Shown here: in pieces, positions 5,441 through 53,349 of the stretch
Layout of the letters: each line of letters opens with the position of its first letter
How positions within the stretch are numbered: position 1 is the stretch's first letter
Assembly: GCA_003021905.1 (NCBI GenBank)
Contig: PXPI01000039.1
Location: 1 to 53,349 of the forward strand
DNA length: 53,349 nt
Direction: 5' to 3'
DNA from: Cyanobacteria bacterium SW_9_44_58
GTDB lineage: Bacteria > Cyanobacteriota > Cyanobacteriia > Cyanobacteriales > Rubidibacteraceae
Notes under the pieces: generated by a model
Databases searched by the model: none
The model's input: the letters and a program-made list of their open reading frames with translations, nothing else
Told to the model about the DNA's origin: nothing
Position numbers and translations under genes: made by a program

Positions 5441-5524
5441 GCGGAACTGGCGGAATTGGTAGACGCGCTAGATTCAGGTTCTAGTGTTCGTAAGAACTTC
5501 CGGGTTCAAGTCCCGGGTTCCGCA
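5441..5524 (+). tRNA. tRNA-Leu (anticodon CAG)
   Basis: 84 bases fold as a class-II tRNA. The acceptor stem is GCGGAAC/GTTCCGC with discriminator A. The D-arm contains AATTGGTAGACGC. The anticodon stem CTAGA/TCTAG encloses the loop TTCAGGT with anticodon CAG. A leucine-type variable arm follows (TGTTCGTAAGAACT), then a T-arm with GGTTCAAGTCC. The 3' CCA is not encoded, so it must be added post-transcriptionally, as is usual in cyanobacteria. It reads leucine codon CUG. Confidence 0.95.
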
Positions 5525-44214: not shown

Positions 44215-44583
44215 ATGAATTCCGGATTATTTCCACAACCCGCTTCCTTTAAAGAAAAATCCCGCGTTTATGATCTCAAAAGCCGCATTGACTGGGGAGA
44301 ACCTGCTTTGACGATCATTGATGTGCGCGATCGCGCCTCCTTTAATGAAGCCCACATTATGGGCGCCATTTCTTTTCCCCGCGAAGAATTGGTTGAACGC
44401 GCCAATGCCAGTTTAGAGTCGGAACGGGATATCTATGTTTATTCCGATACTGATGAAGAAGCCGCAGATGCCGCTGCCCGTTTGAGAGAAGCCGGTTTCC
44501 AGCGTGTTGCCGAATTAACGGGTGGGCTAGGCGCCTGGAGAGCAGCTGAGTACCCGGTAGAATCCAGCTCCGTAGTCGCCTAA
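44215..44583 (+). CDS. Rhodanese-like domain protein without the catalytic cysteine
   Basis: 122 residues, single rhodanese fold: IDVRDRASFNEAHIMGAISFP is typical, and LTGGLGAWRAAEYPVE ends the domain. Where active enzymes have a Cys-containing loop after the YVYC-type strand, this protein reads IYVYSDTDEEAADAA, with Ser instead of Cys and an acidic loop. It should therefore not transfer sulfur and may bind a partner or ligand. AAAGGA lies 10 bases before the ATG. A strong terminator follows. Confidence 0.85.
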   Translation: MNSGLFPQPASFKEKSRVYDLKSRIDWGEPALTIIDVRDRASFNEAHIMGAISFPREELVERANASLESERDIYVYSDTDEEAADAAARLREAGFQRVAELTGGLGAWRAAEYPVESSSVVA

Positions 44584-44630: not shown

Positions 44631-44657
44631 CTCCCGCCGCATTAGGTGGGAGTTTTT
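44631..44657 (+). terminator. Intrinsic terminator of the rhodanese-like gene
   Basis: An 8-bp stem (CTCCCGCC/GGTGGGAG, one G-U) with loop GCATTA, followed by TTTTT. Separates the gene from the hairpin element further downstream. Confidence 0.85.
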
Positions 44658-44708
44658 ACAGAAAGCGCTGTAAAGCCAACGTGCTGGCTTCCGTTGGATA
44701 TAAGGCGG

Positions 44709-44962
44709 GTTAACTGAGAGATTCGATATCTCGAAGTTAACAAAATACAATTCTTATGCTACAATACTCACATCTTCAATTTCGCGAGAGGTAAAATTCC
44801 GGTTTTTGAAGATATTGAGTTGGGACGCCATCTCAGGTGGTAGAAAGAGTAAGACGGGACTTGTCCCGCGTCTTTTGTTTGATCGAATCTTCGATTCGGT
44901 GAGCCTCCGGCTCAATCGCCGAATCCCAGCGTCTTTAAGACGTGGGAGTGCGTCAAAATTGA
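44709..44962 (+). mobile_element. Gene-free multi-hairpin element, IS200/IS605-like ends without transposase
   Basis: Consecutive hairpins fill this gap (44584-45040 has no gene). 44709-44741: imperfect palindrome GTTAACT...AGTTAAC with inner GAGAT/ATCTC. 44772-44813: ATCTTCAA/TTGAAGAT. 44851-44874: AAGAC-GGGAC/GTCCC-GC-GTCTT followed by TT. 44893-44925: GATTCGG-TGAGCC/GGCTCA-ATCG-CCGAATC. 44925-44946: CCCA-g-CGTCT/AGACG-TGGG with one bulged G, then AGTGCGTCAA. Bulged end palindromes and a terminal hairpin just before the edge resemble a TnpB element's right end, which templates the omega RNA. The likeliest reading is a deletion derivative; a free-standing small RNA is possible. Boundaries are approximate. 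Confidence 0.5.
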
Positions 44963-45040
44963 TTAATCCAGACGTGAAGTATCTTAACCATTAAATAAAT
45001 GGTATCCGAAGCGTTAGTTGATGACTAACGAGCAATTTTA

Positions 45041-45865
45041 ATGGAAGTTGTTGCAAACCTAGTCATTGCCGGTTTAATCTTTATTTTCGGCGCTGCCATT
45101 GGCAGCTTCTTAAATGTTGTTATCTATCGCATTCCAGCTAACATTTCGTTGCTTTATCCCCCTTCTCGGTGTCCGGTTTGCCGCCATCAATTAGGAAAAA
45201 CGGAGAATGTTCCCATTGTCGGTTGGCTGTGGCTACGCGGCAAATGCCGTCACTGTAAAACACCCATTTCTCCTCGTTATCCCCTTATTGAAACCGTAAC
45301 GGCAATTGTCTTTATGGCAGTTTATCTTCAGTTTGGATTGGGGGCAACCACAGTTGCCTATTGGGGATTGTTAAGTTGGCTTTTGGCGCTATCTTTAATT
45401 GATTATGACACCATGACCTTGCCCAATTCCCTAACCCAATCCGGATTAATCCTGGGCTTAGGCTATCAAGTCTTTCAAGGCTGGAATCAGGGAGGGGGGT
45501 TATCCGCAACTATTCCTGAACAGCTAATGACAGGCATTATTGGTGCCGTGTTAGGAATTTGGCTGTTTGACATCATTACTTTGCTTGCCTCTAGCGTTTT
45601 GGGGCAAACTGCTATGGGAGGCGGCGATGCCAAATTGGCAGCAATGATCGGGGCATGGTTAGGTTGGAAATTATTGTTAGTGGGATGTTTTCTGGCTTGT
45701 GCAGCGGGGGCATTTGCAGGAGGAGGCGCGATCGCGCTAGGACTCCTCAGTAGGCGCGATCCCATGCCGTTTGGTCCCTTTTTGGCCTTAGGAGGCGCGA
45801 TCGCAGTTTTTTACGGAGAAAGGCTAATTTCCGCTTATGTTGCTCTCTTTTTTCCTTCCCTTTAG
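45041..45865 (+). CDS. Prepilin peptidase (A24 family, PilD-like)
   Basis: Inner-membrane aspartyl protease that cleaves and N-methylates type IV prepilins. 274 residues: N-terminal membrane segment, cytoplasmic zinc site with Cys44, Cys47, Cys69 and Cys72 (CPVC...CRHC), then several membrane helices. The two catalytic aspartates lie in LIDYDTMTLPN and in GGGDAKLAAMIG. Methylase activity is suggested by the N-terminal domain with paired cysteines. No pilin genes are nearby. Confidence 0.93.
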   Translation: MEVVANLVIAGLIFIFGAAIGSFLNVVIYRIPANISLLYPPSRCPVCRHQLGKTENVPIVGWLWLRGKCRHCKTPISPRYPLIETVTAIVFMAVYLQFGLGATTVAYWGLLSWLLALSLIDYDTMTLPNSLTQSGLILGLGYQVFQGWNQGGGLSATIPEQLMTGIIGAVLGIWLFDIITLLASSVLGQTAMGGGDAKLAAMIGAWLGWKLLLVGCFLACAAGAFAGGGAIALGLLSRRDPMPFGPFLALGGAIAVFYGERLISAYVALFFPSL

Positions 45866-53289: not shown

Positions 53290-53349
53290 ATGTTAATCTC
53301 ATATCAGTTCAAGTTAAAGCCAAAACTCTCTCAAGTTGCTGCAATGGAG
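53290..53349 (+). CDS. tnpB: TnpB, IS200/IS605 RNA-guided nuclease (partial, first 20 residues)
   Basis: Only 20 codons fall inside the window: MLISYQFKLKPKLSQVAAME. This start (MLISYQFKLKP-x-SQ) is typical of cyanobacterial TnpB/OrfB proteins, ancestors of Cas12 that cut DNA with an omega RNA made from the element's right end. No catalytic residue is within view. The remainder lies past the right edge. Confidence 0.75.
   Translation, partial: MLISYQFKLKPKLSQVAAME

Follow-up and report, generated by a model that had tools for sequence, protein, structure and literature searches.

Location and borders of the element

The stretch of DNA analysed (the window) comprises 53,349 nt of the draft genome of Cyanobacteria bacterium SW_9_44_58 (G000; 2.94 Mb in 136 contigs). 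Between a gene for a rhodanese-domain protein and pilD, which codes for a prepilin peptidase, it holds an insertion that starts 7 bases past the terminator stem of the rhodanese gene (Table 1). Genomes of the same genus are labelled G001, G002 and G005; C or L followed by a number denotes a contig or a locus. The only tRNA in the window, and its only Rfam match, is a tRNA-Leu (CAG) at 5441-5524.

The borders of the insertion were set by alignment with three tnpB-less copies in G001 (G001a, G001b and G001c), each at another site, and with element-free spacers of relatives. An earlier note on this DNA had described a compact chain of five hairpins without a gene at 44709-44962; these borders were corrected to 44660-44956, and a left-end hairpin at 44676-44697 that had been missed was thereby included. 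The rhodanese-pilD neighbour pair and the terminator occur without the element in G001, G002 and G005, where the spacer measures about 163, 94 and 186 nt, respectively, versus 457 nt in the window. These spacers are strongly diverged, and the exact empty site or a target duplication is not legible from them. G003, in which the two genes are far apart, and G004, in which only pilD was found, were left out of this comparison.

No gene is present in the element, as had been noted before: a Pfam search at E 0.1 gave nothing for the plus-strand frame of 62 aa at 44806-44994. Neither a tnpA nor a tnpB match was obtained in L001, L060, L070 and L077.

Table 1. Features of the insertion and of its surroundings, in window coordinates
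Feature	Position	Strand	Basis
Upstream neighbour, rhodanese-domain gene	44215-44583	+	ORF; PF00581 Rhodanese, E 9.7e-16
Intrinsic terminator of the rhodanese gene	44631-44652	+	Stem and T run; same in orthologous spacers of G001, G002 and G005
TTAC, putative TnpA target and putative TnpB TAM	44656-44659	+	Also precedes 3 of 3 G001 copies
Whole element, 297 bp, without tnpA and tnpB	44660-44956	+	Alignment with three G001 copies; element-free spacers in G001, G002 and G005
Left guide GL, AAAG	44672-44675	+	Sequence; same as IS608 GL
Left-end hairpin CCAACG...CGTTGG	44676-44697	+	Sequence; position common to other left ends
Second left-end palindrome	44709-44741	+	Similar left ends directly before tnpB frames in L007 and L008
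Sigma70-like promoter, TTAACA-17-TACAAT, TG before -10	44737-44765	+	10/12
Predicted omega-RNA scaffold	44772-44956	+	Start placed from the promoter; homology to tnpB 3' ends
5' hairpin ATCTTCAA...TTGAAGAT	44772-44813	+	Alignments A2 and A3
Hairpin GAGTTGG-GACG-CCATCTC	44816-44835	+	Corresponds to (A)GTTGGGGCATCAAC(T) of the tnpB-linked RNAs
Core stem, enclosing the hairpin CGGGAC...GTCCCG	44844-44876	+	A3 helices 3-4
Small dispersed repeat, 33 nt, inserted in RNA hinge	44886-44918	+	Found in C9, lacking in G001a and G001b
Right guide GR, GAAT	44921-44924	+	Sequence; same as IS608 GR
Right-end hairpin CCCA..TGGG	44925-44946	+	A3 helices 5-6, 94.2% and 78.6% of cells paired
TCAA, right cleavage site, element end	44953-44956	+	TCAA in 26 of 28 rows of A3; same as IS608 CR
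Flank, would-be guide (first 16-20 nt)	44957-44976	+	Position only
Downstream neighbour, prepilin peptidase pilD	45041-45865	+	PF06750, PF01478

Transposon ends

The motifs given for IS608 are TTAC (CL), TCAA (CR), AAAG (GL) and GAAT (GR) (PMC5934647). The window copy has all four at matching places, together with subterminal hairpins of the IS605 type. The earlier suggestion of a tnpB-less IS605 derivative was supported, with tnpA missing as well. In contrast to IS608, other left ends compared here pair TTAT with AAAA, and a left guide of the GCACGC type also occurs. This type replaces AAAG in 3/3 of the G001 copies, and the right guide is GCAT instead of GAAT in C9 (the own-genome copy described below) and in G001c; these guides count against present mobility of the G001 copies and of C9.

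The loci compared contain GATATAAGG in 37 different stretches, and in 29 of these both the target and the left guide could be scored. The fourth guide base matched the fourth target base in 28 of the 29 (T-A in 17, C-G in 11), a figure to be taken as support and not as a clean test, since the list of guide words was chosen by eye and the sequences are related. The sole mismatch was in L077, a G001 copy. Eight of the 37 stretches were not scored; L063, L072 and L158 among these resemble left ends.

Copies of the element and their left ends

Further copies, for which the earlier note had proposed a search of the host genome, were found at C9:16959-17171 in the own genome and at the three G001 sites. 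The C9 copy matches window 44773-44965 at 85% and has lost its left end and some bases in one helix. The same ends were found at different sites, namely in the window and at the three G001 sites.

The RNA part of the G001 copies is 96-97% identical among themselves and 83-90% identical to the window, and the left-end part adjoining it is only 64-67% identical to that of the window. For G001a the values are 89.5% (136/152) in the RNA part and 65.6% (40/61) in the adjoining left-end part, and the shift in identity falls at the predicted RNA start. The left-end part of the window is closer to those of L062 (81%) and L003 (79%), both from other elements. Since the RNA part is conserved and the left-end parts differ, the conserved unit starts at the predicted RNA start. 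To judge from these identities, left ends seem to have been exchanged between elements.

Other tnpB-less families were also seen. A second one, roughly 400-440 bp long and with similar ends, consists of L003 (C87:6168-6607) and L004 (C135:13923-14322), whose interiors are 93% identical to each other and 81% identical to G005:C194. A third (L011, L013, L016 and L017 in the own genome, L220 in G001 and L071 in G005) has a left end, a TATAAT-like site and a right end, with interiors 83-89% identical to L013; it gave no tnpB-linked match among the loci compared. When the other tnpB-less families of the own genome were set against the tnpB loci of the set compared here, only right-end hairpins were shared, and all other matches were to tnpB-less copies.

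Promoter-like site and anatomy of the predicted RNA

Scanning of the window copy gave 2 promoter-like sites in 501 bases versus 0.7 +/- 0.9 in shuffles, which is not significant alone. A -10-like hexamer (TACAAT or TATAAT) was located 6 nt ahead of ATCTTCAA in 4/4 copies with a left end. The site in the window is directed at pilD, whose start codon lies 84 nt past the element end, and the insertion could accordingly be read as a promoter and structured leader for pilD in which TnpB is not involved. Three relatives, however, keep pilD beside the same gene without the element, the G001 copies stand at other loci, and the RNA is homologous to tnpB 3' ends (see below), all of which render a role as pilD leader improbable.

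The five stems reported earlier are all present. The first corresponds to the second left-end palindrome, the second to the 5' hairpin of the RNA, the third (44855-44868) to the omega-RNA core within the core stem, and the fifth to the right-end hairpin before TCAA. The fourth is mostly the dispersed repeat inserted in the RNA hinge. The 5' hairpin is present in the RNA-only copies and absent from the aligned tnpB-linked RNAs.

The inserted repeat could harm the RNA and counts against a working element. Its one match in a plasmid collection, of 39 bases, is in NZ_CP042327.1 of Euhalothece natronophila; the coordinates are identical to those of the match on G002:C2, from which the genus was assigned to the Halothece/Euhalothece group. 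The repeat is palindromic, and similar stretches lie at 16 places in G001-G005 and, in the own genome, on C128 and C86. C9 and G001c have a further small insert, distinct from this repeat, in that hinge.

Folding and covariation

The stretch 44709-44962 folded at -83.5 kcal/mol on the plus strand (z -3.95) and at -76.6 kcal/mol on the minus strand (z -4.24); on either strand 0 of 200 shuffles folded as well. The hairpin chain is real. For the RNA part (44773-44956) z was -2.54, with 1 of 200 shuffles as stable, and the RNA core alone (44813-44882) was of ordinary stability (z -0.48). Given these two values, the case for structure is comparative and not based on energy.

For the comparison, six tnpB-less copies were aligned (A2: the window, C9, three of G001 and one of G006). 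In the A2 consensus of 44 pairs, 94.6% of cells were paired versus 91.2 +/- 0.7 in shuffled alignments, 7 pairs were changed on both sides versus 2.0 +/- 1.1, and covariation was 0.183 versus 0.121 +/- 0.014; further pair types were not unusually numerous (157 of 500 shuffles). Between the G001 copies and the window, 9-11 of 87 paired positions differ, and the pairs still form in 43-44 of 44 cases (G001) and 40 of 43 (window).

A covariance model (R1) was built from A2, that is, from the six tnpB-less copies only, and run over 60 genomes at E <= 0.05. A second alignment (A3) was assembled from the six A2 copies and 22 of the 26 further R1 matches, without the rows of L267, L270, L282 and L283. 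The structure that RNAalifold gave for A3 comprises 22 pairs, of which 18 are changed on both sides, with 94.9% of cells paired versus 71.7 +/- 1.3 in shuffled alignments, a figure that is biased in its favour by derivation of the structure from the same rows. Covariation was 0.698, against 0.262 +/- 0.018 in shuffled alignments and 0.108-0.135 with partners slid. In helices 1-2 (the hairpin at 44816-44835) 94.0% and 96.4% of cells were paired and 6 of 8 pairs changed on both sides; in helices 3-4 (the core stem) the values were 98.2% and 97.3%, with 8 of 10 pairs changed on both sides. The scaffold is conserved and covarying, as in TnpB omega-RNA. Folding by chance was rejected by the comparison with relatives, the energy alone not being decisive.

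Relationship to TnpB

R1 gave 32 matches in 16 genomes, 6 of which were the training copies. Among the 26 others, 17 overlap the 3' end of a gene for a TnpB homologous to that of G005, 2 are cut by a contig end, and 7 have no homologous TnpB and are remnant-like; C134, one of these 7, keeps the last 22 residues only. In other families of the order, the RNA model matched L263, L266, L273, L282 and L283, none of which has a homologous tnpB.

A broader model (R2) was built from A3 and run over 291 genomes of the order at E 1e-4, where it matched 156. A sample of 40 was taken from the top-scoring matches listed, with training rows excluded, a choice biased to high scores; 39 of the 40 end a tnpB whose product is homologous to the G005 TnpB. 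The remaining one, L333, gave no tblastn match and reads as a short remnant. The scaffold of the window scored 153.7 bits with R1 and 103.2 bits with R2, being a training row of both models. From the position of R1 and R2 matches at tnpB 3' ends and from the strong covariation, the predicted RNA was assigned to a single TnpB subfamily as its omega-RNA scaffold. The earlier note had suspected a similarity to TnpB right ends, and this similarity is strong. Both of its alternatives, an IS605 derivative and a structured RNA, apply together, the RNA being a self-contained homologue of the scaffolds in TnpB omega-RNAs.

A regulatory RNA that stands alone and has no relation to TnpB would likewise be structured and lack an open frame of detectable homology. 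This account was already disfavoured by the homology, 39 of the 40 sampled model matches being tnpB 3' ends, and no Rfam family reached its gathering score in this stretch of the window (the one weak match, 15.2 bits versus a gathering score of 48, is not credible); we give it hardly any weight. No match at gathering score was found in Rfam at four tnpB-linked loci either. That the stretch is a coding remnant only was also considered and rejected: the last tnpB codons can be traced in the G001 copies (frame ending in ERVRQACPASLV and a stop), and the frame is shifted in the window.

A full element was found at G005:C26, with TTAC, a left end, divergent tnpA and tnpB, and a right end up to TCAA. 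Its TnpB, of 374 aa, scores above the cut-offs for PF01385, PF07282 and NCBIfam guided_TnpB, and its tnpA frame above those for PF01797 and NF033573. The small element resembles it in the type of left and right ends and in the omega-RNA core; unlike the small element, G005:C26 encodes tnpA and tnpB and has neither the 5' hairpin nor the promoter arrangement of the small left end. A decayed IS605 locus was seen at L068 (G006:C166), with divergent tnpB and tnpA remnants and an RNA copy behind tnpA.

In the own genome eight R2 matches exceed 68 bits: the window, C9, C134 and C25, all without tnpB, and C31, C62, C77 and C98, at contig ends. The last four agree in the tnpB 3' end and in the right end, and each has a flank of its own, which indicates at least four insertions of a full or once-full element; that all four break in one tnpB 3' end is an assembly collapse at a multi-copy IS605 element. 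The TnpB matching the RNA belongs to the IS605 subfamily with its 3' end at these four contig ends, and of its gene the draft holds only a piece for 72 C-terminal residues, at a contig end. The own genome has 33 PF07282 (TnpB) matches and 8 rows for Y1 transposase. A plainly intact tnpA is not among these 8 rows of the draft: one has an internal stop, four represent two genes split over two frames, and the rest are partial.

The start of another tnpB lies at the end of the window (53290-53349), where the contig stops as well, so that the right end of this tnpB is cut off. The earlier note had pointed to it as a possible resident partner of the RNA, which was rejected: its first 20 residues, the only ones available for comparison, are 50% identical to other TnpBs of the own genome.

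Proposed explanation and comparison with known systems

As read from the DNA, the element has IS608-type ends, has lost tnpA and tnpB, occurs in dispersed copies and carries an RNA that is homologous to, and covaries with, omega-RNAs of tnpB 3' ends. On balance it is probably a non-autonomous IS605 derivative that contains an omega-RNA only and borrows TnpA to move and TnpB to stay. The RNA would be transcribed from the left-end promoter, starting near 44772, and would run through the right end into the flank. TnpB from a full element elsewhere in the genome would bind and trim it, the flank becoming the guide. TnpA acting in trans would peel the element out, TnpB would cut the resealed site of TTAC plus flank, and repair from a sister copy would restore the element. 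The small element would in this way be mobile and retained while encoding no protein. It is plausible that a resident TnpB uses the flank as guide; within the window the flank is matched exactly only at its own site, and three other places match with 3 mismatches.

In ISDra2, TnpB associates with an RNA some 150 nt long that derives from the 3' end of tnpB and the right end and closes with about 16 nt of flank as guide. It has been proposed that this TnpB cleaves the donor site after resealing, and that repair then restores the element (PMC8612924). Here, as in ISDra2, the guide would come from the flank and the target motif would be that of TnpA; in ISDra2, by contrast, RNA and tnpB lie in one element and the motif is TTGAT, whereas here tnpB is absent and the putative motif is TTAC (PMC8612924). 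According to a preprint, TnpB is able to act as a gene drive in plasmids (PMC11870625).

The element could instead be an inert PATE or MITE, in which an internal deletion left two ends and, by chance, the 3' end of tnpB, so that TnpA may move it and the RNA is a passenger without function. PATEs arising by deletion of the IS605 core are described in Haloquadratum (PMC3119063). Seven of the 26 further R1 matches are likewise remnant-like and without tnpB, the C9 copy is damaged at its left end and in one helix, inserts have accumulated in the RNA hinge of three copies, and a relic would also agree with the insert of 33 nt, with a core that folds weakly and with the want of an intact tnpA in the own genome. 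Against an inert element stand a conserved block whose beginning coincides with the predicted transcription start instead of the left end, pairing maintained despite base changes, and a promoter-like site kept, with its spacing to the RNA, in four copies whose left ends differ. On this evidence we consider an inert relic, the main rival, the less likely reading, and prefer the derivative that borrows TnpA and TnpB.

A more far-reaching form of the preferred reading, which we offer tentatively as a possibility, is that of a minimal, 297-bp RNA-guided selfish element that encodes nothing but a guide RNA. By borrowing TnpA for its movement and TnpB for cutting its own empty sites, it would live as a parasite on the homing nuclease that other transposons provide, and its RNA module could be combined with various left ends and promoters.

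Stand-alone omega-RNAs without an adjoining nuclease gene occur in IscB systems, with a different nuclease family. Transposase-free IS605 derivatives are already known (PATEs; PMC3119063), as are omega-RNAs. The Haloquadratum PATEs share with the present element the lack of a transposase gene, near-terminal palindromes related to IS605, the lack of inverted terminal repeats and the occurrence in many copies; they differ in being terminal-only or short, and a guide-RNA module with its own promoter is not described in the accessible part of that report (PMC3119063). Titles and abstract openings, in which the key TnpB literature is partly covered, name no IS605 element with an omega-RNA only. An element that combines transposon ends with a promoter and an entire guide-RNA scaffold, and has no protein genes, may be new.

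The covariance model provides a handle on an omega-RNA family that is found in 156 of the 291 genomes searched in the order and gave no Rfam match in the window stretch or at the four tnpB-linked loci. Should the RNA be produced and act in trans, non-autonomous IS605 elements would not have to be dead relics, and a homing nuclease might serve them as a shared resource. This would explain the retention of the tnpB 3' end in cut-down elements, and the omega-RNA and its nuclease would be separable for testing in a natural setting.
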